Positions 3,614 to 32,158 of a stretch of DNA of 64,000 nucleotides are shown piece after piece. Source of the stretch: Planktothrix serta PCC 8927 (GTDB lineage Bacteria > Cyanobacteriota > Cyanobacteriia > Cyanobacteriales > Microcoleaceae); NCBI RefSeq assembly GCF_900010725.2, contig NZ_LR734878.1, positions 238,634 to 302,633 on the forward strand, given 5' to 3'. Position 1 is the stretch's first letter, and every line of letters begins with the position of its first letter. The notes beneath the pieces were generated by a model. That model made no database searches and was not told the origin of the DNA. It saw only the letters and a list, made by a program, of their open reading frames with translations. A program made the position numbers and the translations under genes.

Positions 3614-3705
3614 ATTTGGGCTTTTTCTGATTCTCTGTCAACTGTACATAGTCAAGCGTCTTATGGGAACCCCAAAAAGTTCATGATGAACAGAAAGGGA
3701 ATCGA

Positions 3706-4272: not shown

Positions 4273-4318
4273 GGTTTATTACCTCAACTTTGTTCCACCC
4301 TATCCTAAGTTTATCAAC

Positions 4319-5143: not shown

Positions 5144-5185
5144 TTCAAATACCTCTATTGTGATGCAAAAACGGGGTGAAAGGAT

Positions 5186-5857
5186 TTATTTTTTAGGGCG
5201 ACGGGAAGATTTTTTAGGCGTTGTTGAATTCTGCTTTTGACGTTTGGGTTTAGTCGCAGGAAGTTCTACGGAGGAAGTTTCAGAAACTTGGCGTTTGCGT
5301 TTTTTAGATGGGGGAGGATCAAGAGTAGGACTGTTGTTTTTTCCCGTTTTTAGCCATTTTCTAAACTCTTTATATAAAGAGTTAGACCAATCACTAAAGG
5401 AATGGCTCATCGCCCCCATTTCTAATCCTAAATAAATGGCGATACATTCTCTGGGATGGTTGGAAAGAGCTTGACTAATATTTTGAGCAATTTCTAACGG
5501 TTTCCAGGGAAGTAACCCGAAATATTCGGCTATTAGTCCCCCCAAAAGTCCGACAAGACCGATACCCCCTCCTAAATAAAGAATCCTTAAAGCTGTCCCA
5601 ATAAATGGCCCATGAGATAAAAACGAGCGATGACGTAAACTATTTTGATAGGGAACCCAGAAACAGCGCAACATTCCCCACCGTTGAAACTGTCGGGAGT
5701 CAATATCTAAATCGGGGCCAAACATTAACCCACTAAAGAGGAAACTCCCCGTCACCAGAAATGTTAAGTGACTGCTGCGAGTTTGGCTAAACGTCAAACC
5801 TGCAATCAACGGTAAGCTCCACAGGGTAATACGGTCGTGGGTTTGACCTGATGGCAT
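5186..5857 (-). CDS. DUF2227 putative metal-binding membrane protein
   Basis: 223 residues. The N-terminal MPSGQTHDRIT, GPDLDID and LRHRSFLSHGP segments match the DUF2227 'metal-binding protein' family, in which conserved His and Asp residues suggest metal ligands. Hydrophobic segments near residues 30-47 and 88-112 indicate membrane association. The last about 50 residues are a lysine/arginine/serine/threonine-rich tail (PPPSKKRKRQ ... KKSSRRPKK) of low complexity. No function is known. It lies downstream of mazG's opposite end on the same strand, with a 42-base gap. Confidence 0.8.
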   Translation of the reverse strand: MPSGQTHDRITLWSLPLIAGLTFSQTRSSHLTFLVTGSFLFSGLMFGPDLDIDSRQFQRWGMLRCFWVPYQNSLRHRSFLSHGPFIGTALRILYLGGGIGLVGLLGGLIAEYFGLLPWKPLEIAQNISQALSNHPRECIAIYLGLEMGAMSHSFSDWSNSLYKEFRKWLKTGKNNSPTLDPPPSKKRKRQVSETSSVELPATKPKRQKQNSTTPKKSSRRPKK

Positions 5858-5933
5858 GGGGTAGGATGATTAATCATTGAAAATAGGGTTGTGATTCTAA
5901 AAGTTTATGTTATAATCAGTAAATGTGTTAATC

Positions 5934-6005
5934 GGGCGGTTAACTCAGCGGTAGAGTGCTTCCCTTACAAGGAAGAGGCCACAAGTTCGAATCTTGTACC
6001 GCCCA
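5934..6005 (+). tRNA. tRNA-Val (UAC)
   Basis: A 72-base cloverleaf. Acceptor GGGCGGT 5934-5940 pairs with ACCGCCC 5998-6004, discriminator A 6005. The D-arm is ACTC/GAGT, the anticodon stem CTTCC/GGAAG with loop CTTACAA (anticodon TAC), and the T-arm ACAAG-TTCGAAT-CTTGT. CCA is not encoded. Confidence 0.96.
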
Positions 6006-6052
6006 TTAAAATTGAAAAACTTGTATGCTTTGCTGTACAAGAGTTGTTATAT

Positions 6053-6439
6053 TTAACTCCCAGAACAGGATTTTAATACCCAACCGATCACAATTCCTAA
6101 CCCCCCAAAACGAACCGCTTGCCAAAAAGGTTCCTTAAAACTTCCCCAAGTCACTAACCGACTTTCTAAATTAAATTCTAGGGTTTCTAACTGCGTTTTT
6201 AACTGGTTTAATTCGTCTTTCAATTGTTGCGATTTCGTTTGACGAATTTGAGGGATAACTTCATCAATGCGGTTTTTTAATTCGATTTGACGTTGCTCGT
6301 CCCGTTGAATTTGGGCTAATCGGGCTTTAAGATCAATCAGAGATTGTTCAACCTCTGCTAACTCCTGTTCAATATCTTGATTTCCATCCTGATCAGAATT
6401 ATTCGTTGATGGTGGTTGAGACGATGGTTTGCTTGACAT
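6053..6439 (-). CDS. coiled-coil protein with C-terminal membrane helix
   Basis: 128 residues of unknown function. Residues 1-22 are a Ser/Asn/Gln-rich disordered start, 22-95 form a long charged heptad-like coiled coil (Glu, Gln, Leu, Lys rich), and the C-terminus has a short hydrophobic segment (FGGLGIVIGWVLKS) that could anchor it to a membrane. The 44-base gap to the divergent 6484 gene suggests a shared promoter region. Confidence 0.7.
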   Translation of the reverse strand: MSSKPSSQPPSTNNSDQDGNQDIEQELAEVEQSLIDLKARLAQIQRDEQRQIELKNRIDEVIPQIRQTKSQQLKDELNQLKTQLETLEFNLESRLVTWGSFKEPFWQAVRFGGLGIVIGWVLKSCSGS

Positions 6440-6483
6440 AATATTAAAAGACCGAATTCAACCCACAACAGCAATTATTATTT

Positions 6484-6807
6484 ATGACTAACCTCAATTC
6501 CACAACTCCTGATCTTTCTGACCACAAGATGAGTCCACCCACGGCTAGTCTTAGCGAGTATAGCACATTAGAACTCGCCCAAGCTCTGGCGGAACGGTTA
6601 GCAATTCCCGAACGAGACTGGCACCGCCTCAAATCTAACCGCAATGCTCGCGCTGGGGAACATTTAGCGGCAGCGTTAGTCTTTTTACTCAAAAATCAGC
6701 CCAAAGAAGTGATCCCTCGGTTAAATCAGGCAGTTGGCTGGCTGGAACGCTTAATTAGTGCTCCTCCTTGTCCCACTCATGGAACAACTCAAAAAAAACA
6801 GTCGTAA
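6484..6807 (+). CDS. DUF6439-like cyanobacterial protein
   Basis: 107 residues, soluble and mostly helical. The core TLELAQALAERLAIPERDWHRLKSNR and AGEHLAAALVFLLKN resembles a short conserved cyanobacterial family of unknown function (I believe DUF6439). It is divergent from the coiled-coil gene. Downstream, 6829-6904 contains a 12-bp inverted repeat. Confidence 0.7.
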   Translation: MTNLNSTTPDLSDHKMSPPTASLSEYSTLELAQALAERLAIPERDWHRLKSNRNARAGEHLAAALVFLLKNQPKEVIPRLNQAVGWLERLISAPPCPTHGTTQKKQS

Positions 6808-6828
6808 GCATCAAAAACTTACGCTAAA

Positions 6829-6904
6829 ATGGGGAGTTGAAATAGAGGGATGCCCGATGAAAATACAGAGATAATTTAAAATAAATGAACTCTCAACTCC
6901 CCAT
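6829..6904. repeat. inverted repeat, 12-bp arms
   Basis: ATGGGGAGTTGA at 6829-6840 and its exact reverse complement TCAACTCCCCAT at 6893-6904, with a 52-base loop. It sits between two convergent genes. It has no T-run, so a simple terminator is unlikely; a folded RNA or a remnant of a small mobile element are options. Confidence 0.6.
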
Positions 6905-6944
6905 GAATAAGGTGATTTGGACTGATTTTAACTTCTTAAAAGCC

Positions 6945-7535
6945 TTACCAATCCTGTTGATGTCCATAGGATGTTGCCATTTTCTTACATAACGTCAGTT
7001 CTGTTCCCGTTCGATTCCATTGCACACGATCAAAGATTTGATAAAGAATGTACAAACCTCGTCCGCATTCATGATCATCATGGGGTAAATCAGAATCTTG
7101 GGTTTCTGTTTCGGGTTCATAATCAGCCTCGTCCTGCAATTGACATTCACAAGGGGGTTTAAAACCACAACCCTGATCTGATATAATCCACCAGCAATGA
7201 TCTTGAATTAGACTAAAGCGGACGACGACTGTTTTACTCGGGTCTAGCTTGTTGCCATGCTTGGCAGCGTTGACAAGTGCTTCTTGTAGTCCAAGGCGAA
7301 TTTCGGCTTGCAACGAGTCTGGAATGTCAGACAGAAGCAAGTCCAAAACTGGACAGAGATACAAGGTAGAAGCAAAGCTAATGGTGACCCAGTTTCGTTT
7401 AACCGGACGCGATGTTAAAGCAATCACACGGAAAACTCCCTGGCAACGTGGTGGATAAACCTCACACCCGGCATAGTGATCAATTCTCTCCTTCTGTGGA
7501 ATTTTTTCGGTGGGTGAGCGTGAGTACCCGTTCAT
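6945..7535 (-). CDS. RsbW-like anti-sigma regulatory factor / histidine-kinase-type ATPase
   Basis: 196 residues. The GHKL ATPase core is visible: N-box LGLQEALVNAAKHGNKLDP, G1 box ISDQGCGFKPP and a G2-like HECGRGLYILYQIFD. There is no dimerisation or membrane domain, which fits the HATPase_c_2 serine-kinase/anti-sigma class that controls sigma factors through anti-sigma antagonists. A segment rich in acidic residues (about 148-166) lies before the G2 box. The first about 36 residues have no family match, and a GTG at 7427 is an alternative start. Confidence 0.82.
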   Translation of the reverse strand: MNGYSRSPTEKIPQKERIDHYAGCEVYPPRCQGVFRVIALTSRPVKRNWVTISFASTLYLCPVLDLLLSDIPDSLQAEIRLGLQEALVNAAKHGNKLDPSKTVVVRFSLIQDHCWWIISDQGCGFKPPCECQLQDEADYEPETETQDSDLPHDDHECGRGLYILYQIFDRVQWNRTGTELTLCKKMATSYGHQQDW

Positions 7536-7838
7536 TCATTAGATTACCAAAAGAATAAGAGAAAACACAATTAATTTGGAAAAATAGTGTATTTTCTTTG
7601 TATTATACTTGAATTACAAACAAGCTCAACCCTAGAGAAATCAAGGGATTTTGAAGAAAACAGGCTAAGAGAAGACTTGGAATTGAAATGTTGCTGAGAA
7701 TGATAAAACAACTTTTCTGAGTTTATCCTAATGGATGAAAATTAGTAGCTATTGATACAGACGACTAAATAATCAGCTAGATCTCTGTTGTTTTTGTTAA
7801 TATTATTAATGTAAATTAATATTTCTTCATAAAACGAC
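7536..7838. other. 303-base AT-rich intergenic region between divergent genes
   Basis: No coding frame of note. It must hold the promoters of the RsbW-like gene (minus) and the hydrolase (plus). AT-rich runs such as ttaatattattaatgtaaat lie close to the hydrolase start, but I cannot assign a specific site. Confidence 0.4.
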
Positions 7839-8735
7839 ATGATCACAACCCCAAACCTCACCTCTGAAGTGATCCCTGGACAATATTGGCAGTGGCGGGA
7901 TCAGTTAATTTACTATGTTCATGAAGGTGAACGTCACCCTCAGCGTCCCCCATTACTCCTGGTTCATGGGTTTGGAGCCTCAACGGATCACTGGCGTAAA
8001 ACGATACAAGGGTTACAAGCGGATTTTGAAGTCTGGGCGATCGATTTGTTGGGGTTTGGTCGTTCGGCAAAACCCAATGAACAATATAGCGGTCAACTGT
8101 GGCGAGATCAACTCCACGACTTCATTACAGAGGTGATCGGTCAACCTGTAATTTTAGCCGGAAATTCGTTAGGGGGGTATGCGTCCCTTTGTGTTGCGGC
8201 CCAATGTCCCTCAACCGCCAAAGGTGTGATTTTACTCAATAGTGCGGGGCCATTTACGGAGACCGATCCCCGTCCCGAACCCCCCCTATGGAAAAAAGCG
8301 GTTTCTGTTACCATGCGATCGCTATTTCGTCAAGAGTGGGTGAGTTTTTTAATTTTCCAATGGACAAAACGCCGTTCTATTATTCGCAAAACCCTACTCA
8401 AAGTCTATCTTGATCCCCATGCTGTTACCGATCAATTAGTAGAAGATATTTATCGTCCCTCCTGTGATCTCGGTGCGGCGCAGGTATTTGCTTCGGTATT
8501 CAAAAGTCCTCAAGGGGAAAAAGTGGATGTGTTGTTAAATCAGTTAACCTGTCCTCTATTATTAATTTGGGGAGAAGGTGATCCTTGGATGAAATGTCGA
8601 GAACGCAGTCGCAAGTTTCATCAATATTATCCCCAATTAAAAGAATATTTTTTGAATGCGGGTCATTGTCCCCATGATGAAGTTCCTGAACAAGTTAATG
8701 ATATTATTCGGTCTTGGGTTTTAGAACAAGTTTAA
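7839..8735 (+). CDS. alpha/beta-fold hydrolase
   Basis: 298 residues with a complete hydrolase-fold triad: oxyanion segment LLVHGFGASTDHW, nucleophile Ser in the elbow AGNSLGGYAS, Asp in WGEGDPW and His in NAGHCPHDEVP. A helical cap (about 170-225) separates the two halves. Such proteins in cyanobacteria are related to plant chloroplast esterases and epoxide-hydrolase-like enzymes; the substrate is unknown. It is followed by a G/C-rich hairpin and then by a strong convergent terminator. Confidence 0.9.
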   Translation: MITTPNLTSEVIPGQYWQWRDQLIYYVHEGERHPQRPPLLLVHGFGASTDHWRKTIQGLQADFEVWAIDLLGFGRSAKPNEQYSGQLWRDQLHDFITEVIGQPVILAGNSLGGYASLCVAAQCPSTAKGVILLNSAGPFTETDPRPEPPLWKKAVSVTMRSLFRQEWVSFLIFQWTKRRSIIRKTLLKVYLDPHAVTDQLVEDIYRPSCDLGAAQVFASVFKSPQGEKVDVLLNQLTCPLLLIWGEGDPWMKCRERSRKFHQYYPQLKEYFLNAGHCPHDEVPEQVNDIIRSWVLEQV

Positions 8736-8744
8736 CAGTCAAAG

Positions 8745-8763
8745 TCCCCCTTTTTAAGGGGGA
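8745..8763 (+). repeat. dispersed CCCCC/GGGGG hairpin repeat
   Basis: TCCCCCTT (8745-8752) pairs with AAGGGGGA (8756-8763), then a second aggggg follows. This type of short hairpin often occurs in multiple copies between cyanobacterial genes; it may also help to end the hydrolase transcript. Confidence 0.5.
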
Positions 8764-8810
8764 TTTAGGGGGATCATATCTGTAGCGTAATCATAAATTT
8801 TCGGCAAATT

Positions 8811-8848
8811 TTAACCCGTTGTTGCGATTCATCGCAACAACGGGTTAA
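8811..8848. terminator. strong convergent hairpin terminator
   Basis: Perfect 18-bp inverted repeat: 8811-8828 is the reverse complement of 8831-8848, with the centre at tc. Its right arm overlaps the stop codon of the 2Fe-2S gene (8845-8847), so the hairpin begins exactly where translation of that gene ends. Flanked by TTTT on the left (minus reading AAAA), so termination is likely for both converging genes. Confidence 0.75.
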
Positions 8849-9147
8849 GAATATTGATATCGCGGATGAATGCGGGGGTTTAGTTTATCTTCGACGGGTT
8901 CGCCGTGTTTGAGATGTTGTTCAATAATCAGGGGCACATCTCCCGGCTTAACCCGATAATACCAAACTTCATCGGGAGTCACTCGCACCGTCGGGCCAAT
9001 ATTACATTGACCTTGACAACCGCAGGCTTCTATTGTGACTCCCGGAATTTTAAGATTTTGAAAAGCGTCCAGAACTTCTAGAGAACCCTGTCGCCGACAA
9101 GACTGATGTTGACAAATTAACACACAACGATGAGGTTGAGTTTCCAT
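8845..9147 (-). CDS. thioredoxin-like [2Fe-2S] ferredoxin
   Basis: About 100 residues. Cysteines sit in the pattern CQHQSC ... CGCQGQCNIGP, which is the thioredoxin-like 2Fe-2S ferredoxin cluster site (as in NuoE-like and Aquifex-type small ferredoxins). It probably carries electrons to an unknown partner. I choose ATG 9147 (METQPHRC); an ATG eight codons upstream is possible but adds nothing conserved. Its stop codon lies in a terminator stem. Confidence 0.85.
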   Translation of the reverse strand: METQPHRCVLICQHQSCRRQGSLEVLDAFQNLKIPGVTIEACGCQGQCNIGPTVRVTPDEVWYYRVKPGDVPLIIEQHLKHGEPVEDKLNPRIHPRYQYS

Positions 9148-9289
9148 AAATAAATATTTAATTTCAATCAAAAACTAACAATTAACTCCATCTATAATTT
9201 AACTTAAAACAACTCCGAAGATCAAAGTTAGTGTTTACAAATTCTTTGTGTCTTTGTGTCTTTGTGGTTAAATTAGCTATAAATTATTT

Positions 9290-9318
9290 GAGTGCGTGCG
9301 CGTTGATGGAGCACCCGA
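9290..9318. repeat. GGTGCGTGCG-type dispersed repeat
   Basis: The stretch gtgcgtgcgcgttgatggag followed by caccc matches 14511-14535 almost exactly and belongs to the same GTGCGT family as the tandem array at 14187 and the copy at 53090. Confidence 0.6.
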
Positions 9319-9323
9319 CAAAA

Positions 9324-9353
9324 AACTGCTTTAGGATTAATCCTAAAGCAGTT
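9324..9353 (-). terminator. intrinsic terminator of ppsA
   Basis: A 30-base perfect palindrome with centre at 9338/9339 (15-base half AACTGCTTTAGGATT). On the minus strand it is followed by TTTTTG. It starts 17 bases past the ppsA stop codon. Confidence 0.8.
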
Positions 9354-9370
9354 GTTAACTTACACCACTT

Positions 9371-11818
9371 TTAAACCTGTTGACTCACTCTTTGGGAGGC
9401 TTCCATCTCAGCAATATCCAAAGTTGTCCTCAACACCGAATCTGGATTTAAACTGATGGAATCTATTCCTAATTCCACTAAGAAACGCGCAAATTCAGGA
9501 TAATCACTCGGCGCTTGACCACAAATTCCAATTTTACGATTGTAGGCTTTAACGGTTGCGATCGCCATTTCAATCATCCGTTTCACTGCTTCATCTCGTT
9601 CGTCAAAAATATGGGCTACCAAAGCAGAATCTCGATCTAATCCTAACGTTAATTGCGTTAAATCATTCGAGCCAATTGAGAAGCCATCAAACACTTGACA
9701 AAACTCATCCGCCATTAAAACATTACTCGGTAATTCACACATCACATAGACTTGTAACCCCTGTTGACCCCGAACTAACCCGTGTTTTGCCATTTCTGCT
9801 AATACTTTTTGTCCTTCTTCCGGTGTCCGACAAAATGGAATCATCGGGATCACATTGGCTAATCCCATTTCATTTCTGACCCGTTTTAAAGCTTGACATT
9901 CTAACGCAAATGCTGCTTGATATTTCGGATCATAATATCGGGAAGCACCTCGCCAACCAATCATCGGATTTTCTTCAATGGGTTCAAATTGCCGACCCCC
10001 CAATAAATTCGCGTATTCATTACTTTTGAAATCACTCATCCGCACAACAACAGGATTAGGATAAAATGCCGCCGCAATCATACTAATTCCGTGAGCCAGT
10101 TTATCTACAAAGAAATCCGGTTTATGATCATAAAGTTCCGTTAATTGGGCAATTTGTTGTTTAACGGCTTCATCTTGTAATTGATCAAAATGGATTAAGG
10201 CTAAGGGGTGAGTTTGGATGTGATTCGCAATAATAAATTCTAACCGAGCTAACCCGACACCATCATTGGGAATGGCCGACAATTTAAACGCTTCTTCCGG
10301 GTTTCCCACGTTCATCAATATTTTAGTTTTGGTTTTGGGAAGATGGTCTAAAACCGTTTCTTCAACCATAAAAGCAACTAACCCTTGATAAACTTTTCCT
10401 TCTTCCCCTTCCGCACAGGAAACCGTAACTTGATCGCCCGTATTTAAGACTTCCGTTGCATTTATAGAGCCAACAATTGCCGGAATTCCTAACTCCCGTG
10501 CAATAATCGCCGCGTGACAAGTTCTGCCCCCAGAATTGGTAATAATTGCACTGGCTTTTTTCATAATCGGTTCCCAGTCGGGGTCAGTTTTATGGGTGAC
10601 TAAGACATCTCCCGCTTGAAACTGATCCATATTTTTAACACTGGTCATCACCCGGACTTTTCCCTGTCCAATTTTATCCCCAACTGCCCGACCTCTCAAT
10701 AATACTCGACCTTTGCCTTGTAATTTATAATGTTGTAATACCCGTCCTGTTTTTTGAGATTGTACCGTTTCTGGACGAGCTTGAACAATAAATAACTCTC
10801 CCGTCAAGCCATCTTTTGCCCATTCAATATCCATCGGAGAATAGCATTGTCGCACTTGAGAATAGTGATCTTCGATCATCACTGTCCATTGGGCTAATTT
10901 CAGAATTTCATCCTCGGAGAGGGCATATTTTTTCTGTTCAGAAATCGGAACTTCTACGTTTTTGGTTTTCTGTCCGAGTTCATACACCATTTTAATCGCT
11001 TTTGTGCCTAAGCGTTTCTCTAAAATAGGTTTGAATCCTTCGCGTAATGTCGGTTTAAAGACGAGATATTCATCGGGATTGACAGCACCTTGAACTACAT
11101 TTTCTCCTAACCCGTAAGCAGCCGTAATTAAGGCAGCATTTTTAAATCCAGTTTCGGTATCAATGGAGAACATTACCCCCGATGTGGCTAAATCAGAACG
11201 TACCATTTTTTGAATACCGACGGAGAGGGCAATATTAAAATGATCAAACCCTTTTAGGGTACGATAGGAAATAGCGCGATCGGTAAAAAGGGAGGCAAAA
11301 CAATAACGAGTTGCATCTAAAACCGCTTTTGCTCCTTTGATATTTAAGTAGGTTTCTTGTTGACCTGCAAAACTAGCATCGGGTAAGTCTTCGGCGGTTG
11401 CAGATGAACGCACGGCGACATCGGTATTTTGACCATAGCGATCGCTAAGTTTTTGATAGGCTGATACAATTTCTGTTTCTAATTTAGGGGGGAATAAGGT
11501 ATTTAAAATCAGCGATCGCGCTTGTTGACCGCAAAGACGAAGATTTTTAATATCTTCCACATCTAAACCCGCAAATAATTGTCTTAATTGTTGTTCTAAA
11601 TTGGCATAAGTGATGAAATACCAATAAGCATAAGAGGTAATCGCAAACCCGTGAGGAACATTAATTCCTTTGGGTTGTAACTGTTGAATCATTTCTCCTA
11701 GGGAGGCATTTTTTCCTCCCACTAAACCAATATCCTCAATTCCCACTTGATCAAACCAGAGAATTAAAGATTGTTCTTTATATTGAGATAAGGGCTTAAA
11801 CGGTAAGGTTTTTAACAT
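9371..11818 (-). CDS. ppsA: phosphoenolpyruvate synthase
   Basis: 815 residues, full length. It converts pyruvate, ATP and water to PEP, AMP and phosphate. Domains in order: N-terminal ATP-grasp (LVGGKNASLGEM, VAVRSSATAEDLPDASFAGQ), the central swivelling domain with the phospho-His in SGGRTCHAAIIARELGIPA, and the C-terminal TIM barrel with SNDLTQLTLGLDRDS, the catalytic Cys region GICGQAPSDYPEF and SLNPDS. It is monocistronic, with its own terminator. Confidence 0.97.
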   Translation of the reverse strand: MLKTLPFKPLSQYKEQSLILWFDQVGIEDIGLVGGKNASLGEMIQQLQPKGINVPHGFAITSYAYWYFITYANLEQQLRQLFAGLDVEDIKNLRLCGQQARSLILNTLFPPKLETEIVSAYQKLSDRYGQNTDVAVRSSATAEDLPDASFAGQQETYLNIKGAKAVLDATRYCFASLFTDRAISYRTLKGFDHFNIALSVGIQKMVRSDLATSGVMFSIDTETGFKNAALITAAYGLGENVVQGAVNPDEYLVFKPTLREGFKPILEKRLGTKAIKMVYELGQKTKNVEVPISEQKKYALSEDEILKLAQWTVMIEDHYSQVRQCYSPMDIEWAKDGLTGELFIVQARPETVQSQKTGRVLQHYKLQGKGRVLLRGRAVGDKIGQGKVRVMTSVKNMDQFQAGDVLVTHKTDPDWEPIMKKASAIITNSGGRTCHAAIIARELGIPAIVGSINATEVLNTGDQVTVSCAEGEEGKVYQGLVAFMVEETVLDHLPKTKTKILMNVGNPEEAFKLSAIPNDGVGLARLEFIIANHIQTHPLALIHFDQLQDEAVKQQIAQLTELYDHKPDFFVDKLAHGISMIAAAFYPNPVVVRMSDFKSNEYANLLGGRQFEPIEENPMIGWRGASRYYDPKYQAAFALECQALKRVRNEMGLANVIPMIPFCRTPEEGQKVLAEMAKHGLVRGQQGLQVYVMCELPSNVLMADEFCQVFDGFSIGSNDLTQLTLGLDRDSALVAHIFDERDEAVKRMIEMAIATVKAYNRKIGICGQAPSDYPEFARFLVELGIDSISLNPDSVLRTTLDIAEMEASQRVSQQV

Positions 11819-12192
11819 GGTTTAAATAACTCCAAACGCAACTGACTATCTAATGCTTAGATAGGGTTTATGTACTTTTATTGCAAAATAAGTCTATTGA
11901 GATTAAAGGCGAGTTTCTTCTGCCTTTAAACAGAGTTAGTGTTTCCTCTAAAATATGAAAATCCTTGATCCCCAAGCTTTAAACGTCGAGTTCAATTTTG
12001 TTTTAGCTGGAGATCAGGGGGTGGCTGACTTAATTCTTGGCTGTGAATTGCTCCTACTTTTATCTTATTGCGTCTGTTGGAAATCGACATCCCTCTTGGT
12101 AGAATAGTCTTAGTTACTTAATGGAAAGAATGGCGACAAATCGGCTTCTGAGAGATATTTTAAAAAACATTAAGTTTTTTTAGGAGGCACGA
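11819..12192. other. 374-base intergenic region with a small hairpin
   Basis: It lies between divergent ppsA and the HxlR gene. TTAAAGGC (11903-11910) pairs with GCCTTTAA (11922-11929). Just before the HxlR start there is a ttttaaaaaac ... gttttttta symmetry and a strong Shine-Dalgarno aggagg at 12182. No gene is seen. Confidence 0.45.
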
Positions 12193-12585
12193 ATGAAAGT
12201 TAAGGAATGTTACAAAACGACAGAGGTATGGGACAGCAACCAATGTCTTGACATGATTTGTCCGATTGAGTTCATCTTGGAATTAATCGGAACAAAGTGG
12301 TCAATCTCCATCCTCCGCGAGTTATTTCGAGGAAATCAACGCACCCATGAATTATTAGAAGCGTTACCCGGTATCAGTACCAAAACCTTGACCGTCCGGT
12401 TGCGGGAGTTGGAAAAACACGGGTTAATCAGCCGTAAGGTCTATGCTGAAATTCCTCCGCGTGTAGAATATTCCCTGACCGAAAAGGGATTAGAACTTCA
12501 ACCTGTTTTAGTGGCTTTGAAGCAAGTTGGAGAACAGTGGTTACAAGACAGTCATTGTGTTTGTCCATTAGAACTTAGTGTCTAA
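12193..12585 (+). CDS. HxlR-family transcriptional regulator
   Basis: 130 residues, winged helix of the HxlR/MarR-like class. Core motifs: IGTKWSISILRELFRGNQRTHELLEALPGIS (helix-turn-helix) and TLTVRLRELEKHGLISRKVYAEIPPRVEYSLTEKG (wing). Cysteines at the N-terminal helix (CLDMIC) and at the C-terminus (CVCP) could be redox sensors, as in other HxlR proteins; that is inference. Strong RBS taggaggcacga before ATG. It may control the downstream dehydrogenase or itself; the target is not visible. Confidence 0.9.
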   Translation: MKVKECYKTTEVWDSNQCLDMICPIEFILELIGTKWSISILRELFRGNQRTHELLEALPGISTKTLTVRLRELEKHGLISRKVYAEIPPRVEYSLTEKGLELQPVLVALKQVGEQWLQDSHCVCPLELSV

Positions 12586-12769
12586 AGACGGTTTAGGGGC
12601 GCGGAGTTTTGCAATTCCCTATCACTCATAAACGTAAAATTCTGTAACAATTATTACAAATTTAACCTTTTCTTCGGGATCACAGGTTAGGCTACAGATA
12701 TAGCAGTCGCCAAGGCAGTTAGGACATAGATTGATTCTAAAACCTAAACAGAGAACTCTTTTCCAGCCT

Positions 12770-12797
12770 GTTCCCTGTTCCCTGTTCCCTGTTCCCT
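12770..12797 (+). repeat. heptamer short tandem repeat (GTTCCCT x4)
   Basis: Four perfect tandem copies of GTTCCCT, in the leader upstream of glutamate dehydrogenase. The same heptamer recurs at 24755, 36577 and (as AGGGAAC) 59878. Such heptamer arrays (STRR-type) are known in filamentous cyanobacteria. Confidence 0.85.
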
Positions 12798-12844
12798 GCT
12801 ATAAAGACAAATTCAGCTATCTGATCTCAATAGGAGGTCTGCAA

Positions 12845-14134
12845 ATGGTATCCTCTCCTGTCAGAATCAATCCGGCACCGACTCCGGCTTATATTTGTCC
12901 CTACGATCGCACCTGTAGCTATTTGGGACAAGCGGCTGTTGAATTAAATCTTGATGACAATATATTGGTGGTGTTACAACAACCCCGCAAAGTCGTCACC
13001 GTCTCCATTCCCGTAAAACTCGATAACGGCAAAGTCGAGGTTTTAGCCGGACATCGCGTACAACATTGTGATGTACTTGGCCCTTATAAAGGCGGTTTAC
13101 GCTATCATCCTTCGGTGAACTTGGGAGAACTCTCCGCCTTAGCCATGTTAATGACCTGGAAATGTGCCTTAATCAGCATTCCCTACGGGGGTGCTAAAGG
13201 TGGCATTGGCTTTGACCCGCATCAATATAGTATTAATGAGTTAGAACGGATCACCCGTCGTTATGCCAGTGAACTGATCAAAGATATTGGGCCAGAAACC
13301 GATATTCCAGCCCCAGATGTGGGAACATCTTCCCGTGAAATGGCCTGGATTATGGATACTTATTCGATGAATATGGGGCGTGCGGTGCTAGGGGTTGTGA
13401 CCGGGAAACCGTTATCTGTGGGAGGTTCAAAAGGACGAGATATGGCAACCGGACGGGGTGTAATGATTACCGTGCGGGAAGCTTTAGCAGAAATGGGCAA
13501 AACCCTTGAAGGTGTAGCCATTGTAATTCAAGGCTTCGGGAAAGTTGGCGCGGCGGCGGCTCAATTGTTTTATGAAGAGGGCGCGACGGTCTTAGCAGTT
13601 TCCAATGTATCTGGCGGGATCTATTCGGAAAATGGCTTAGATATTCCAGCCCTGCAAGCCTACGCTGCCCACAACAATCATAGTATAGCGGGATTTCCCG
13701 ATAGTGAACCGATTAGCAATGCGGAATTATTAACCTTAGCTTGTGATGTTTTGATTCCGGCGGCAATGGAAGATCAAATTACAGAGGAAAATGCTGATCA
13801 AATTCAAGCGAAAATGATTGCTGAAGCGGCTAATGCACCGATTACATTATTAGCTGATCAAATGTTAGAAGCGCGAGGAATTATCGTTTTACCCGATATT
13901 TTAGCCAACGCTGGAGGCGTGGTTGTCAGTTATTTGGAATGGGTGCAAGGTCAATCTTTTGTCTTCTGGGATGAAGAACGAGTGAATCATGAGATGGAAA
14001 ACTTGATGGTACGCGCTTATGCTCGTGTGAGTGAACGCGCCAAACTCCGGGGCGTTTCCCTGCGATTAGCAGCTTATACGTTAGGCGTTGGTCGTGTCGC
14101 TCAAGCGTTAATGGATCGGGGTTTGTATCCTTAA
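12845..14134 (+). CDS. gdhA: Glu/Leu/Phe/Val family dehydrogenase (glutamate dehydrogenase)
   Basis: 429 residues from ATG 12845, which has an ideal RBS (aggaggt, 8 bases). Substrate-domain motifs: PVKLDNGKVEVLAGHRVQH, GPYKGGLRYHP, MTWKCALISIPYGGAKGGI with the catalytic Lys, and PAPDVGT. The Rossmann NAD(P) domain shows IQGFGKVGAAAA. It catalyses reversible oxidative deamination of glutamate. The frame is open upstream to 12731 but passes through a heptamer repeat that encodes nothing conserved. Substrate choice within the family cannot be settled from sequence. Confidence 0.92.
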   Translation: MVSSPVRINPAPTPAYICPYDRTCSYLGQAAVELNLDDNILVVLQQPRKVVTVSIPVKLDNGKVEVLAGHRVQHCDVLGPYKGGLRYHPSVNLGELSALAMLMTWKCALISIPYGGAKGGIGFDPHQYSINELERITRRYASELIKDIGPETDIPAPDVGTSSREMAWIMDTYSMNMGRAVLGVVTGKPLSVGGSKGRDMATGRGVMITVREALAEMGKTLEGVAIVIQGFGKVGAAAAQLFYEEGATVLAVSNVSGGIYSENGLDIPALQAYAAHNNHSIAGFPDSEPISNAELLTLACDVLIPAAMEDQITEENADQIQAKMIAEAANAPITLLADQMLEARGIIVLPDILANAGGVVVSYLEWVQGQSFVFWDEERVNHEMENLMVRAYARVSERAKLRGVSLRLAAYTLGVGRVAQALMDRGLYP

Positions 14135-25877: not shown

Positions 25878-26081
25878 ATGAATATTAAAGCTATTGTTCA
25901 CGAAGCAGAAGAGGGAGGGTATTGGGCAGAAGTTCCTGCACTTCCTGGATGTGTAACCCAAGGGGAAACTTGGGAAGAAGTGATGGAAAATCTGCAAGAA
26001 GCGATAGAAGGTTGGTTAGAGGTGGCAAATGAAACTCAAAAGGAAAAAGAAACTGACCGCATTGTGCAAATTGCAGTATGA
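25878..26081 (+). CDS. hicB: HicB-family antitoxin
   Basis: 67 residues of the degenerate RNase-H fold: MNIKAIVHEAEEGGYWAEVPALPGCVTQGETWEE, then ENLQEAIEGWLEV. It binds and neutralises HicA and represses its own promoter in known systems; it lacks a clear C-terminal DNA-binding domain, so the repression role is not assured. Its stop overlaps the hicA start by 4 bases (ATGA). The order is hicB-hicA. A duplicated promoter lies upstream. Confidence 0.93.
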   Translation: MNIKAIVHEAEEGGYWAEVPALPGCVTQGETWEEVMENLQEAIEGWLEVANETQKEKETDRIVQIAV

Positions 26082-26287
26082 AATCAATTTCTGGGAAAAA
26101 TTTTTGTAAGATTTTGGAAAGAAAAGGCTGGATTTTGAAACGAATCAAAGGCAGTCATCATATTTATCAAAATCCCCAAAATAATAGGATTGTTTCTGTT
26201 CCAGTTCATCGGAATCAAGATTTAAAGCTCGGAACATTAGGTGTTCTGATGAAAACTGCAAATATATCTGAAGATGAGCTAAACTAA
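26078..26287 (+). CDS. hicA: HicA-family mRNA interferase toxin
   Basis: 69 residues with the double-stranded-RNA-binding-like fold: SGKNFCKILERKGWILKRIKGSHHIYQNP, catalytic His in the GSHHIYQ segment, then VSVPVHRNQDLKLGTL. It cleaves mRNA when free of HicB. Intact length and motifs; the only complete TA pair in the window. Confidence 0.93.
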   Translation: MKSISGKNFCKILERKGWILKRIKGSHHIYQNPQNNRIVSVPVHRNQDLKLGTLGVLMKTANISEDELN

Positions 26288-26356
26288 TCAACTTTTCTTG
26301 AATCAATCACTATTTATTCAGAAGTAGAGTTCAAGTCATTATTAGGGAAACTTTAA

Positions 26357-26614
26357 ATGATGTTAACAAATTTTATTTACGCAGCCATGAATCGGGCAAA
26401 ATATGAGATCTTAGATGAGGGGATATTTTATGGAGAAATACCCGACTGTCAGGGAGTTTGGAGTAGTGGTAAAACCTTGGAAGAATGTCGAGAAAATTTA
26501 CAAGATGCGTTAGAAGGATGGATCATTTTAGGGTTACGTTTGGGTCATCAATTACCGATTTTAGAGGATATTAACTTAAACATTGAAAACGAGAAGCAAC
26601 CACAAAGACACTAA
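26357..26614 (+). CDS. orphan HicB-like antitoxin
   Basis: 85 residues with the HicB core: YEILDEGIFYGEIPDCQGVWSSGKTLEECRENLQDALEGWI. No hicA follows; the next gene is convergent. The C-terminus is longer than in its neighbour (LRLGHQLPILEDINLNIENEKQPQRH). It may be an antitoxin left after toxin loss, or protection against foreign HicA. Confidence 0.85.
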   Translation: MMLTNFIYAAMNRAKYEILDEGIFYGEIPDCQGVWSSGKTLEECRENLQDALEGWIILGLRLGHQLPILEDINLNIENEKQPQRH

Positions 26615-26670: not shown

Positions 26671-29598
26671 TTAGGTTTTACCCTCAACTATTTTAATTTC
26701 TTCTTCTGTTAATCCATACAATTCATAAACCAGTTGATCGATTTGTTGTTCTAATATTGTTGTATCTGTATTGGGGTTTGATTGTTTGGCGGTGAGAATT
26801 TTGTTAACTAATTTTTCTATCTCATCCGTTTGTTTAAAAGTTGGTTCAGGAATTCTTAATTGTCTTATATCGTTCAGAGTTATTTGTGTAAAATCATCCT
26901 TTTTTGCTGATGTTGAACCTTTAGTTTGTATAAATGAAATAAGTTTTGAGTTAATAATAGCCAATAAATATCTAGCAGAAAATCTCTTATTATTAGGTTT
27001 AAAAATATAGACATCTTTTTTTGTCACAAATCGCTGTTCAGTCAAGGTTGCCATTATTCTAAACTGCCTATTTATAATTCTTCTAATTAATATTCTTTCA
27101 CCTGTAAAAGAATCAAATGAAGATGGTTTTTCTTTGATATTTTCGCCATAGTTAACATATTGAAAATTCTCACTATCTATAAAGTATCTATCTATTTTTC
27201 CGACGAAAATAGTTTCATATTTCTCTGTTAATTTAGTTGTGGAATAATCTTCTTGATTTGCTAAAATTCCTCTGGTAGAATTTGTAATATCCTCAAGTTT
27301 AATATTAAATATATTTAGCTTATTAGTCAGTGATCTTGATATTGAATTAAAAATTATTTTTAAGCTGTCAGTATTAGCCCATTCATTTTTATGAAGTCTG
27401 ATATAATTTAAAGAATTAAGTATATTATAATCTATCTTTTCCCTTGTCCCAAATTCATATATATATGAAATCCTCTCATTTATATTTTTAGAAAATATAT
27501 AAATTCCTGTATCAACATACGCATCCGAAAATATGTTATAGGGTAAAATTACACCTAAATTAAGATGGAGATTTTGAAGAATCAGACTTCTTGTTGAATA
27601 ATATTTCTCGCTTGTTAACCAGAATATTGGTATAATCAATGCTAAAAAACCTGATTTTTTAGCAACTCTTATTCCCTGATCTATAAAAATTGTATAAATG
27701 TCATCTATTCCAGAGTATTGATTTGAAAAAAGTGCTTTTTCACTCGAATTAAATTTAACTCCATAAGGCGGATTTCCAATCACAACATCAAAACCAATAA
27801 ACTTTCCTGTATCATCCAAAATTTCAGGAAACTCAAACCGCCATTCAAACGCATGATCATAAATTTTACCGCTTTCAATTTCCTCAATTTCCACCCTTAA
27901 CTTATCAATCTCATTATTCAACTTAATAACTTTCTTCTCCCGTACTTTCTGTTCCGCTTTAGTTTCCTCAAACAGCAAAAGTTGATTCTCTAAATTATAA
28001 ACTTCTCCCTCTAACTGTCTTAACTTCGTTTTCTTGGGGTCAACTCCTTGAAGTGTAGTTTTAAAATTACCTTTAATGGTATTTATTAACTTTTCCATCT
28101 CTCGCTTTTGCTGTTTATTTTCAGCATGGCGATAGGTTTGAACAGCATTTTGATAGGTTTCAATATCAATTTTATTTTTCTTTAACGCGGGTTTTAAATC
28201 CGCATCCAAAGGAAAACGACTAATTAAAGAGTTACCGCATTTAATATTAATATCAATATTCGGTAGGGTTTCCAGTTCGCTGTAATTACTATCCGCTTGA
28301 TAATAGGCATTTTTTAACAATTCTATCCATAAGCGTAACCGACAGATTTTAACCGAGTTCGGGTTAATATCCACCCCAAATAAACAATTTTCGATAATCG
28401 TTTGCTTTTCATGAAATAAGGTTTCTTGGATGCGTTGACTTTCTGGGTTTTGTGGCGTATAGCTAAAAGGTTTATTATCTTCATCGGTGATAATTAATTC
28501 ATCATTTTCTACAATAATTTGATATTCTTTTAATCGTTTTCCAGTTTGATCCTGTAAAATTTTCAGATCATTTTTAATCGCAATAATTTCATTTAATGCT
28601 GAAACTAAAAAATGTCCCGACCCCACCGCCGGATCACAAATTTTCAAACGATTAATAATTTGATTTGCTTCGGTTCTATCTTCTATTTTATCATATAAAT
28701 CATCAAGAGTTTGACAATTCCAACCTTTAATATCATTAAATTTCTGGACAACTGCTTTCCTCAGAGTTTCTCGACACATATACATGGTAATAAAACCAGG
28801 GGTAAAATATGACCCGTCTTTATAACCATTAATTTTCTCGAAAATTAGTCCTAAAACCGAAGCATTAATTAAGGTTTTCTGATCTTCTTGAATTCCTTCT
28901 AAACCTTCGCTACTAAAATCATAAGCGTCCAGAAACTCAAACAAATATTGTAGAGTATTGAGTTCTCCCGTGCGTTTGTTTCCGTTATCATCTTTTAAAA
29001 CAGTTGTTGATAAAATGGGGAGTTTGTCTTCTCTCAGGTTACTTATCACAATAGTTTGATGTTCTAATTCTGTGGGTTCAAATAGGGAACTATTCAGATA
29101 GGGAACATGAGCAAAAATCTTTTGTACATCTGAGTTACGTTCACTAGATTTAACCGCCAATATCTGAAAAAATAAACGATCTAAATCATCAAAATTATGG
29201 ATTTTATCTAAATTTAGAAAAGCAAAATTTTTGTTCCCTTTATGGTAAGTTATTAATTGAGATTCTAATAATTTTAAAAATAAAATTCTGTTGATCCAAG
29301 TAATTGCTAACTCTAAAGCAATATTAAAAAGCTGTTCTTGTTCAGTTTCTCCAAATTGTTCGGGTTTTTCCAGTCGGGAAATTTTATCTAAACTATTCAG
29401 TTGTAAAATAGCATTTTCTAGGAGTGAACCGGAATTTTGTTGTCCTTCAGGTTGACGTTTGATCAGCTTTTTATTCTTTTCTTTCGTTTCGGTTAAACCA
29501 ATAATATGCAGTAATTCACTATAAAAACTTTTATTGAGAGTATTGCTATCATTATTTAAGGCTTCTCTAGGTTGTCTTTGTTTATTTTTCATAGTCAA
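26671..29598 (-). CDS. type IIG-like (Eco57I-type) DNA methyltransferase, apparently without nuclease domain
   Basis: 975 residues. N6-adenine methylase motif I DPAVGSGHF (322-330), the ENCLFGVDINPNSVKICRLRLWIELL segment after it, catalytic NPPY (609-612), a coiled-coil region (about 480-590), and a C-terminal specificity domain (about 750-960). I recall relatives of about 1200 residues with an N-terminal PD-(D/E)XK nuclease; here residues 1-15 (QPREALN) look like their extreme N-terminus, followed directly by NDSNTLNKSFYSELL, which in them lies about 230 residues later. That suggests an in-frame loss of the nuclease. It lies tail to tail with the orphan hicB, and head to head with DUF262. 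Confidence 0.87.
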   Translation of the reverse strand: MTMKNKQRQPREALNNDSNTLNKSFYSELLHIIGLTETKEKNKKLIKRQPEGQQNSGSLLENAILQLNSLDKISRLEKPEQFGETEQEQLFNIALELAITWINRILFLKLLESQLITYHKGNKNFAFLNLDKIHNFDDLDRLFFQILAVKSSERNSDVQKIFAHVPYLNSSLFEPTELEHQTIVISNLREDKLPILSTTVLKDDNGNKRTGELNTLQYLFEFLDAYDFSSEGLEGIQEDQKTLINASVLGLIFEKINGYKDGSYFTPGFITMYMCRETLRKAVVQKFNDIKGWNCQTLDDLYDKIEDRTEANQIINRLKICDPAVGSGHFLVSALNEIIAIKNDLKILQDQTGKRLKEYQIIVENDELIITDEDNKPFSYTPQNPESQRIQETLFHEKQTIIENCLFGVDINPNSVKICRLRLWIELLKNAYYQADSNYSELETLPNIDINIKCGNSLISRFPLDADLKPALKKNKIDIETYQNAVQTYRHAENKQQKREMEKLINTIKGNFKTTLQGVDPKKTKLRQLEGEVYNLENQLLLFEETKAEQKVREKKVIKLNNEIDKLRVEIEEIESGKIYDHAFEWRFEFPEILDDTGKFIGFDVVIGNPPYGVKFNSSEKALFSNQYSGIDDIYTIFIDQGIRVAKKSGFLALIIPIFWLTSEKYYSTRSLILQNLHLNLGVILPYNIFSDAYVDTGIYIFSKNINERISYIYEFGTREKIDYNILNSLNYIRLHKNEWANTDSLKIIFNSISRSLTNKLNIFNIKLEDITNSTRGILANQEDYSTTKLTEKYETIFVGKIDRYFIDSENFQYVNYGENIKEKPSSFDSFTGERILIRRIINRQFRIMATLTEQRFVTKKDVYIFKPNNKRFSARYLLAIINSKLISFIQTKGSTSAKKDDFTQITLNDIRQLRIPEPTFKQTDEIEKLVNKILTAKQSNPNTDTTILEQQIDQLVYELYGLTEEEIKIVEGKT

Positions 29599-29685: not shown

Positions 29686-29791
29686 TATATACTCAAGCCT
29701 TCTGATCTTGCAGTTTGCCATTTCAGCTTAGGAATGCTAGAATAGCTCATAATGCTGACGGAGAATTGAGACAATGCTATTTGCGCCCGTT
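29686..29791 (+). repeat. 106-bp direct repeat, copy 2
   Basis: See copy 1 at 25711-25816; 94% identical, same orientation. This copy carries the promoter, leader and first codons of the DUF262 gene and is taken as the parent. Confidence 0.93.
29715..29743 (+). promoter_or_regulatory. sigma70-type promoter of the DUF262 gene (copy 2)
   Basis: TTGCCA (29715-29720), 17-base spacer, TAGAAT (29738-29743), 30 bases before the ATG at 29774. Confidence 0.6.
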
Positions 29792-30943
29792 GAAGAAAAA
29801 ATGTGGGAGAAATCTTCCTCAAAACGTCAAAAAAAAATGTCTGATGGAGAAATTAATGATAAATACTCCTCACAAGAAAACCGAATTCTAACTGAAATTA
29901 ATCGGGAAAAACTCCCTAGCTTTGCTGAGGCTTTAAAAAAAAACGGATATATGAATGTACAACCCGTTTATCAAAGAAGACCTCGATGGGATGCCAAAAT
30001 GAAGTCACGATTAATTGAGTCATTCCTAATTAATATTCCTGTTCCGCCCATTATTCTGTTTGAAATAGATTATAATTCTTATGAAGTCATGGATGGTCAA
30101 CAGAGAATTACAGCAATTAGAGAGTTCTATGAAAACAAACTCAAACTAACGGGACTCGAACTTTGGCCAGAAATCAATGGACGTACTTATGAGCAACTTC
30201 CAATTAAAGTTAAAGCAGGAATTGATCGTCGATCTATTTCATCTATTGTTATTATTGCAGAATCAACTTCTGATCCTGAAACAGCTTTGTTCCTCAAACA
30301 GAAAAGTTTTGAACGTTTTAATACCGGAGGCGTAGATTTAAGTCAGCAGGAAGTACGGAATTGTTTGTATCATGGGAAGTTTAATTCATTATTATTGGAA
30401 TTATCTCGTGATCCTATTTTTACTCAATCTTGGGGAATTCCTACAGATGAAAATGCTGATTTATTAAACAATAATCTTTATAAAAAAATGGAGGATGCAG
30501 AATTAGTGCTTCGTTTCTTTGCCTTGAGGAATGTAGATCATTTTCAACGAGGAATGGAAGGATTTCTTGATCTTTATATGATCAAAAGTTCAAATTTTTC
30601 TGATCAGGATATTTTAATCCTGAAGGATGTATTTTTAAAAACAATTAGTCTAGCTTACGAAATTTATAACGATAATTTATTCAAACCCTTCGATCCAAAA
30701 TCTATGACTTGGAAGAAAGATTCCTATAAAGCTTATTATGATGCGGTCATGGTTGGATTTAATCGACATTTGGATGAAAGAGAAATTTTAATCCATAAAA
30801 AAACAAGAATTATTGAAGAAACCCAAAAACTCTTTAAAAGGGAAGAATCACGTCTTTTAACAGGCGGTGGAAAAAGTAAAGCAGAAATTCAACAGCGAAT
30901 CCAAATCTTTGATGATATGCTATCGCAGGTTATTGGAGAATAG
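29774..30943 (+). CDS. DUF262 (ParB-like nuclease fold) protein
   Basis: 389 residues. The N-terminal half is a DUF262/GmrS-N domain: YQRRPRWD at 66-73, then the YEVMDGQQRITAI motif (DGQQR at 107-111), characteristic of the ParB/Srx fold with NTPase or nuclease activity in defence proteins such as GmrSD and BrxU. It lacks the C-terminal DUF1524 HNH nuclease of GmrSD; the C-terminal half has no recognised motif. It starts in the 106-bp repeat, and ATG 29774 fits the promoter. It is 6 bases from the HEPN gene, so the two form one operon. Confidence 0.9.
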   Translation: MLFAPVEEKMWEKSSSKRQKKMSDGEINDKYSSQENRILTEINREKLPSFAEALKKNGYMNVQPVYQRRPRWDAKMKSRLIESFLINIPVPPIILFEIDYNSYEVMDGQQRITAIREFYENKLKLTGLELWPEINGRTYEQLPIKVKAGIDRRSISSIVIIAESTSDPETALFLKQKSFERFNTGGVDLSQQEVRNCLYHGKFNSLLLELSRDPIFTQSWGIPTDENADLLNNNLYKKMEDAELVLRFFALRNVDHFQRGMEGFLDLYMIKSSNFSDQDILILKDVFLKTISLAYEIYNDNLFKPFDPKSMTWKKDSYKAYYDAVMVGFNRHLDEREILIHKKTRIIEETQKLFKREESRLLTGGGKSKAEIQQRIQIFDDMLSQVIGE

Positions 30944-30949
30944 CTGGCA

Positions 30950-32014
30950 ATGTTTGAGAATCTTTTAGAGACATCCAGTATAAAAATTGCAACTGTTCGT
31001 GCAATGCTCCAGACTAATGATAGACTTAGGGCAATTGTTTTTGGAAAACATAGTTTAAATAAAGATCCATTGCAGGAAAACAATGATTTTCTGAAATTGG
31101 CTCAAGAATTTCCTAGAGAAATTGAATGGAAAATCTATGACCACTGTGCTACTGTAATGCGATTATACGCCATTTATGAAAGATTTGTTGAAGATTTAAT
31201 CTCCGAATGGTTACAACTTTTACCTGAGTTAATTTCCAGTTATTCCGATTTAGGTGAAACAATTCAAAATACCCATCGAGAGGGAATAGGACGATTATTA
31301 ACATACCCGAAAAAGATACGATTTGAAGATCCTGAAAACCAAAATCTATCTATTTATTATAAAAAAGTGGTTCAAGGGTTTTTGGCTGCCATTAGTGACC
31401 ATGAAAAATACGAGTTACTTCCTGAAATTTTTATATTCCATGAACAAAATTTAAGAAAAGATGCGTTAGTGGAATTATTGACCAAAGCTGGAATTGAAAA
31501 GGCTTGGGAATGGATTATTGACCATCGAAAGATCAAATATTTTATAGAGCAAGTCCGAGGAAATCAAAATACCGCCGAAGCAGAACTTAAACAATTTATT
31601 CACTATCGTAATAAAGCAGCACATGGATCAATTAATGAAACTTTGGGAATTCAAGAATTGCTATATTTAGCAGATTTTGTTGAAGCATTATGTCAATCTT
31701 TAGCTGAATTAGTAACTTATCAAATCCTTTTAAAAAAAGTATCAATTGGACAAGCTCAAAACGTTGGACGGGTTACAGAATGGTTTAAAAAGCCAAAAGC
31801 AGCCGTCGTAAAAGTAGAGAATATCACTTTATCTGTAGGAGATAAGTTATTTCTAGTGAATGAAGAATCATCTTATTGTTCTTTAGCTGAAATTGAGAGT
31901 ATTGAAATACATGATCGATCGGAAAATCAAGTTGAAATATCTTCTCTTACGGAAGTGGGATTAAAGTTTAATATTGATGCTCGAAAAGGATTTAGCCTTT
32001 ATGTGATCAATTAA
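30950..32014 (+). CDS. HEPN-domain protein (MAE_28990/MAE_18760-like)
   Basis: 354 residues, helical. It has the HEPN RNase motif R-x4-H: HYRNKAAHGS, Arg220 to His225, in a helical domain (about 50-260) that starts with YDHCATVMRLYAIYERFVEDL. The C-terminal about 80 residues form a beta-rich part (about 270-350) of unknown role. HEPN proteins with this motif cleave RNA. It is co-transcribed with DUF262 (6-base gap), and its 3' end overlaps a degraded ABC-transporter fragment on the other strand. The named subfamily is from memory. Confidence 0.82.
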   Translation: MFENLLETSSIKIATVRAMLQTNDRLRAIVFGKHSLNKDPLQENNDFLKLAQEFPREIEWKIYDHCATVMRLYAIYERFVEDLISEWLQLLPELISSYSDLGETIQNTHREGIGRLLTYPKKIRFEDPENQNLSIYYKKVVQGFLAAISDHEKYELLPEIFIFHEQNLRKDALVELLTKAGIEKAWEWIIDHRKIKYFIEQVRGNQNTAEAELKQFIHYRNKAAHGSINETLGIQELLYLADFVEALCQSLAELVTYQILLKKVSIGQAQNVGRVTEWFKKPKAAVVKVENITLSVGDKLFLVNEESSYCSLAEIESIEIHDRSENQVEISSLTEVGLKFNIDARKGFSLYVIN

Positions 32015-32158
32015 AGTTACTACGTCTAATTGTTCCTGAACGAATAGAAGCAATTAATTGACGAGTAGTATAGGCTTGTTTCGGATGGCGGTAAATTTCC
32101 TCTGCGGTTCCGATTTCTTCGATTTTTCCTTGATTCATGACAATAATGCGATCACCCC
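32007..32158 (-). pseudogene. C-terminal fragment of an ABC transporter ATP-binding protein
   Basis: On the minus strand this reads DRIIVMNQGKIEEIGTAEEI, then a short YRHPKQAYT and LIASI stretch. It is the tail of an oligopeptide/nickel-type ABC ATPase (OppD/OppF class). The rest of the gene is missing. It sits at the edge of the DUF262/HEPN island and overlaps the HEPN stop by 8 bases. A scar of an older gene order. Confidence 0.75.

Follow-up and report, generated by a model that had tools for sequence, protein, structure and literature searches.

A type IIG-like DNA methylase without its nuclease domain in Planktothrix serta, and comparable clean losses in other cyanobacteria

Introduction

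The locus examined here raises the question of whether a large methylase gene of the bloom-forming cyanobacterium Planktothrix serta PCC 8927 descends from a restriction enzyme that lost its cutting domain, and of what the remaining protein would then do. The stretch analysed, referred to from herein as the window, comprises 64,000 nucleotides of contig NZ_LR734878.1 (positions 238,634 to 302,633). A sequence-only reading had proposed that the gene encodes a type IIG-like methylase that lost its N-terminal nuclease in frame, PREALN being fused directly to the region that follows, that the product methylates without cutting, and that it is possibly paired with neighbouring DUF262-HEPN genes. 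The origin of solitary DNA methylases from broken restriction systems is a disputed point, and one survey inferred that complete systems rarely degrade into solitary methylase genes (Oliveira et al. 2014, PMC4176335).

Results and Discussion

The methylase gene and its domains

The open reading frame at 26671-29598 on the minus strand is unbroken; an alternative TTG start is found at 29598, and the ATG at 29592 is most likely the start used. Pfam identifies DUF7814 (residues 18-244), an Eco57I methylase domain and a TaqI-like specificity domain (TaqI_C) in the protein. The features of the gene are:

26671..29592, minus strand: type IIG-like DNA adenine methylase lacking the nuclease; 973 aa when read from the ATG at 29592 (open reading frame, Pfam, PADLOC, alignment)
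29553..29554, minus strand: excision junction PREALN/NDSN, an in-frame gap of about 227 residues (Pfam DUF7149) relative to full-length relatives
28867..29547, minus strand: DUF7814 (PF25120), which comes after the nuclease in full-length enzymes; Pfam match from the third codon of NDSN
28609..28635, minus strand: AdoMet-binding motif I of the methylase, DPAVGSGHF, intact here and identical in 12 of 12 aligned copies
27763..27774, minus strand: catalytic motif IV of the methylase, NPPY, intact here and identical in 12 of 12 aligned copies
26779..27747, minus strand: target recognition (specificity) region including TaqI_C (sequence comparison)
26674..26778, minus strand: conserved C-terminal end, which bounds the exchangeable specificity region on its 3' side (sequence comparison)

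The PADLOC type IIG model aligns residues 15-796 to profile positions 220-1006 (688 bits). Identity to some full-length Planktothrix enzymes is 67-71% over the whole length and about 90% in the core, and the C-terminal end is 93-97% identical in DNA to most Planktothrix copies. The gene thus has the type IIG features of a gamma-class adenine methylase with motif I, NPPY and a C-terminal specificity region, but its polypeptide lacks the N-terminal nuclease domain. Besides the gene itself, its own genome gave no second strong match to the methylase. A distantly related (27% identity) large methylase or type IIG-like gene lies about 2-5 kb before the window, at 233578-236265 of the same genome's contig C58.

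The missing nuclease domain

The window protein retains its first residues, MKNKQRQPREALN, and then runs straight into NDSNTLNKSFYSELL, the start of the post-DUF7149 part; in the alignment PREALN abuts this segment without a spacer. Full-length Planktothrix relatives read PRE(A/S)LNKAFLKVK at the corresponding place, and only after about 227 residues reach LLKLPTA/NDSNTLDK, where the break falls between LLKLPTA and NDSNTLDK; in the window protein this intervening part is excised in frame. In the full-length Planktothrix relative L101, Pfam places DUF7149 at 7-243 and DUF7814 immediately after it, at 244-470, whereas the window protein has DUF7814 alone. The gap coincides, in frame, with the border between the two Pfam domains.

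DUF7149 is very likely, though not proven to be, a PD-(D/E)XK-like nuclease. The PD-(D/E)XK cleavage domain of type IIG enzymes sits in the N-terminal ~200 aa (PMC3874165). Residues D75 and E93-x-K95 of DUF7149 are invariant across 46 relatives from many genera. A confident AlphaFold2 model built from the alignment of these 46 sequences (pLDDT 92) puts D75 on one strand, E93 on the next and K95 just beyond, followed by a long helix, a predicted layout that is that of a PD-(D/E)XK site. The best matches in a fold search were the type IIG enzymes DrdV, BpuSI and BsaXI, all weak (E 0.05-0.8), with no match at E <= 0.001, and comparison with solved structures by sequence gave no match.

A search of the window's own 99.9%-complete assembly for DUF7149 found no match in any contig, so the nuclease is neither in another gene of DUF7149 type nor mis-assembled onto another contig. 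Two artefacts can accordingly be discarded: a nuclease hidden in another frame or gene, since DUF7149 is missing genome-wide, and assembly collapse of a tandem pair, since unique nuclease DNA would show on some contig and does not. The nuclease-less architecture is also present in records listed as chromosomes or nearly complete, those of P. rubescens PCC7821, Sphaerospermopsis NIES-73 and Anabaenopsis. Alignment, Pfam and genome search thus agree with the sequence-only reading on the in-frame loss of the nuclease. With motifs I and IV intact and the PD-(D/E)XK-like domain missing, the product is, judged by its sequence, a methylase without cutting power, as that reading had also suggested.

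Distribution and number of losses

Most close homologues carry the nuclease: the window protein served to fetch 79 loci, of which nearly all have a nuclease region upstream of the position matching window residue 16. A survey of 391 genomes of the order yielded about 96 near-complete DUF7814 domains, and the coordinates from two domain searches (DUF7814 and DUF7149) were compared across these genomes. Only 4 of the roughly 96 were intact DUF7814 genes without DUF7149 directly upstream, which excludes chance; they are the window gene, second copies in P. rubescens (G002) and Sphaerospermopsis NIES-73 (G389), and one gene in a further cyanobacterial genus (G032). Three more nuclease-less genes were found in Cuspidothrix (two copies) and Anabaenopsis elenkinii.

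Every nuclease-less junction resumes at the same NDSN, preceded by different sequences. In two Planktothrix species (the window and P. rubescens) it is preceded by PRE(A/T)LN, and in Sphaerospermopsis (one copy) and Cuspidothrix (two copies) by MNLLKLPF; the latter junction probably has one origin, given that the DNA upstream of the nuclease-less genes is conserved between these two genera. Anabaenopsis has PYRNQ, and in Nodularia a relative preceded by the same neighbour genes is full-length. The gene of G032 has MNFKNKT. In a tree of 98 cores the nuclease-less copies are dispersed among full-length ones, and well-supported branches force at least five changes in nuclease presence or absence. 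As gene conversion can draw a nuclease-less copy toward its full-length neighbour, origins were counted from the junctions and not from the tree, which suggests about four origins of clean nuclease loss in cyanobacteria by junctions, not seven by tree. The two Planktothrix nuclease-less genes share just three exclusive sites, which do not cluster at the junction. The case for common descent of the Planktothrix junction therefore consists of the junction as such, the start region that both genes share, and the first 150 nt, where local identity is best between these two genes (91%, against 84-87%).

A phage origin was rejected: no phage record matched at E 1e-30, and the one relative on a viral contig is full-length. 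Three of 16 matching plasmid records were inspected and all three were full-length, with no plasmid-borne nuclease-less form; judged by open-frame length, none of six Bacteroidota genes in a sample of 198 genomes was a short form. At 5915-7529 of locus L132 (G242), a full-length type IIG gene has its nuclease domain split by an inserted ORF of 397 aa, possibly a transposase, which would be another route to losing the cutter.

Genomic setting and specificity regions

A full-length restriction-modification partner is present in the same genome in P. rubescens, Sphaerospermopsis, Cuspidothrix and Anabaenopsis, but not in the window genome. In P. rubescens (L097) the full-length gene (10117-13914, minus strand) is followed directly downstream, about 120 nt away, by the nuclease-less gene (7183-9999, minus strand), and Sphaerospermopsis (L127) has the same order, full-length (6333-10103) and then nuclease-less (3012-6062), both on the minus strand. 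Cuspidothrix (L024 / L181, 4259-16881) has a full-length gene, a nuclease-less one, a small methylase, a Bpu10I-type restriction enzyme (PF09549) and a second nuclease-less gene; this array holds four methylase genes around two nucleases. The full-length copy of Anabaenopsis lies about 36 kb from the nuclease-less one, and the window and G032 genes have no full-length neighbour. The locus of the window gene, beside yebC, is occupied by a full-length gene in a related genome (G008), whose core is also the closest (92%). The window gene, with HicAB-like genes and a DUF262-HEPN pair as neighbours and no DUF7149 genome-wide, is intact and has no nuclease of the same system fused to it or nearby, as is expected of a solitary (orphan) methylase, although an unrelated nuclease with the same target may lie elsewhere.

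The stretch from NPPY to about 35 residues before the C terminus is mostly 24-40% identical among Planktothrix copies, whereas cores are 86-97% identical and the ends are conserved. Specificity domains diverge from copy to copy even where cores are 96-99% alike; G001, G006 and G009 share one specificity type (92-97% identical). The same pattern is seen in DNA among the three Cuspidothrix copies, with 94-100% identity per 150-nt block before the variable region, 44-69% (mostly 44-63%) within it and 92-96% after it, the nuclease-less copy NL1 diverging earlier than NL2. Tandem partners in Planktothrix and Sphaerospermopsis have specificity regions only about 31-36% identical. Conserved cores and ends around unrelated regions imply either that specificity regions are exchanged or that cores are converted.

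The specificity region of the window gene bears no relation to its counterparts in other Planktothrix copies (24-35% identity) and is nearest to full-length enzymes of Bacteroidota and one of Pseudomonadota (46-52%); a search of 60 genomes of its family gave no close nuclease-bearing match (best 29%). Closer counterparts exist for the other genera, two of them in cutting enzymes of sister genera: the nuclease-less specificity region of Sphaerospermopsis is 85% identical to that of a full-length Dolichospermum circinale enzyme, one from Cuspidothrix matches the region of a full-length Anabaena enzyme at 89% identity, and that of Anabaenopsis is 84% identical to that of its own full-length copy.

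Relation to known systems

The window gene shares its chassis, from DUF7814 to the C terminus, with the type IIG (IIC) restriction-modification enzymes of the DUF7149-DUF7814-Eco57I family (PADLOC PDLC03612), but these have the DUF7149 nuclease and it does not. In the Eco57I (RM and M) and BpuSI (RM, M1 and M2) systems a nuclease-free methylase stands beside a type IIG enzyme, as it does in P. rubescens, Sphaerospermopsis and Cuspidothrix. Unlike the Eco57I and BpuSI companions, the extra copy here is a near-copy of the restriction-modification enzyme whose specificity region is unrelated, and it is the sole copy in the window. BREX PglX/BrxX proteins, formerly listed as type IIG, are also large nuclease-free gamma-methylases with a type IIG-like layout, but the window protein scores 90.8 bits on the NCBIfam BREX-1 model, far under the family cut-off of 500, and the neighbouring proteins scanned gave no match to BREX genes. 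The solitary methylases of Oliveira et al. (PMC4176335) likewise lack a cognate nuclease; in the present family, descent from a complete fused enzyme is visible, and repeatedly so.

Solitary methylases (PMC4176335), type IIG companion methylases (PMC3874165) and the movement of specificity domains (PMC3077401) are already known, while the literature searched contained no account of an in-frame nuclease excision recurring within one type IIG family. About four distinct clean in-frame losses in one family, each leaving a conserved methylase, suggest that solitary methylases can arise in this way, and offer a testable model for the passage from fused restriction enzymes to epigenetic or shielding methylases. 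Planktothrix is among the top genera in type IIG counts (PMC8262939), and counts made by the methylase half or by protein size, as there, may include non-cutters; the 688-bit match of the PADLOC type IIG model is to a gene without the nuclease.

Function of the nuclease-less methylase

We consider that the window gene is probably a functional solitary N6-adenine methylase, derived from a type IIG enzyme by clean removal of DUF7149 and likely acting as a methyl shield, possibly also as a store of specificity domains. A type IIG gene would have been present as a second copy beside an intact one, as is still the case in P. rubescens, Sphaerospermopsis and Cuspidothrix; DUF7149 would have been removed cleanly and in frame from one copy, and the intact partner, now absent, would have been lost in the window lineage. 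Because it retains DUF7814, the AdoMet-binding and catalytic motifs and the specificity region, the remaining protein should bind its own target and methylate adenine, with m6A as the predicted product, without cutting. Nuclease-less copies go on swapping specificity regions with full-length copies, or their cores are converted by them. As a shield, such a methylase would methylate, in the host's own DNA, the sites that match the specificities of cutting enzymes in relatives. This role, the most likely one on comparison of the specificity regions, fits the data for Sphaerospermopsis and Cuspidothrix best and would extend to the window, where it is less direct because none of the 60 genomes searched in the family has a nuclease-bearing gene with a closely matching specificity region. 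The lack of a full-length neighbour in the window and in G032 counts against this explanation.

The core dN/dS of the two Planktothrix nuclease-less genes (0.149) lies within the range of full-length pairs (0.08-0.16), which, together with intact frames and motifs, argues for function, although purifying selection on the core could partly reflect gene conversion from full-length copies. It is very improbable that the gene is a decaying remnant, an ordinary loss on its way to becoming a pseudogene. Degraded family members do occur in the order (e.g. G136, G336 and G309), but here the frame is open, all motifs are intact and dN/dS is about 0.15; moreover, the junction is common to two species, and several independent clean in-frame losses have occurred at one boundary. 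A companion role as in the Eco57I and BpuSI systems, in which the nuclease-less protein completes same-site protection for a full-length partner that the window has since lost, would account for the tandem arrangements in P. rubescens, Sphaerospermopsis and Cuspidothrix, and gamma-methylase companions are known for monomeric type IIG enzymes (PMC3874165). We nevertheless regard it as decidedly unlikely, as the specificity regions of tandem partners mostly differ so strongly that a shared target is improbable, most full-length members have no companion, and the window gene has no partner. The near-identical cores and ends around unrelated specificity regions in Cuspidothrix and Planktothrix would suit nuclease-less copies that serve as a reservoir of recognition domains for the nuclease-bearing copy, pre-methylating new sites for a safe switch, and in H. 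pylori the specificity domains of both type I and type IIG S genes are known to move (PMC3077401). Yet no pair of strains was found with the same specificity region in a full-length and a nuclease-less copy of one species, and the window has no full-length recipient. As the main role of these copies the store seems unlikely, though it is a serious alternative. A wider conjecture, which we advance as speculative and rather doubtful, is that the tandem type IIG arrays of bloom-forming cyanobacteria (one cutter and at least one non-cutter, with differing specificities) are a device for safe switching of specificity. Nuclease-less copies would pre-methylate alternative targets, a new specificity region could then enter the cutting copy without self-killing, and the window would be a reduced array, shrunk to a single nuclease-less cassette.

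The neighbouring DUF262-HEPN pair

Upstream of the methylase, and divergently transcribed from it, lies a pair of genes with which the sequence-only reading had proposed that it might form a modification-gated system. The features concerned are:

29774..30943, plus strand: DUF262/GmrSD_N protein (PADLOC NsnA, PD-T4-2_A), a neighbour of the methylase (Pfam and PADLOC)
30950..32014, plus strand: HEPN protein (RiboL-PSP/MAE_28990 type), partner of the DUF262 gene (domain search and loci of relatives)
32009..32153, minus strand: 3'-end stub (145 bp) of an ABC-transporter gene, the intact gene being on another contig of the same genome
25711..25816, plus strand: 106-nt direct repeat (94%) of 29686-29791, which spans the first codons of the DUF262 gene and the DNA upstream of them

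Besides the adjacency of the genes, the idea finds some encouragement in DUF262 proteins of other systems, which sense modified DNA (PMC10952713). The distribution of the pair speaks strongly against it. HEPN relatives occur in 81 of the 391 genomes, with a DUF262 gene adjoining in nearly all of 30 fetched loci, but the pair has a DUF7814 gene within 10 kb in three genomes only, all Planktothrix (G000, that of the window, G006 and G009), and in the last two that gene still has its nuclease. In G006 and G009 the HEPN gene also overlaps the end of the ABC-transporter gene; the window has the pair together with a stub of that end, so the pair was carried here from another locus, where it abuts the transporter gene. 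P. rubescens, finally, retains the nuclease-less methylase and has no HEPN match. The DUF262-HEPN pair is a widespread stand-alone defence module and not part of the methylase, and a joint modification-gated system is extremely unlikely. At 2646-3925 of L097, P. rubescens PCC 7821 has a DUF262 gene 95% identical to that of the window, with the HEPN partner missing.

On the other side of the methylase, at 25878-26614 of the window, a HicB-HicA pair precedes another HicB-like (UPF0150) gene. Most of the Planktothrix genomes examined have this last gene next to their type IIG gene, and two different loci are involved. The two copies of the 106-nt repeat flank the methylase and HicAB genes, and the repeat looks like the scar of a rearrangement that united the methylase, HicAB and DUF262 genes.
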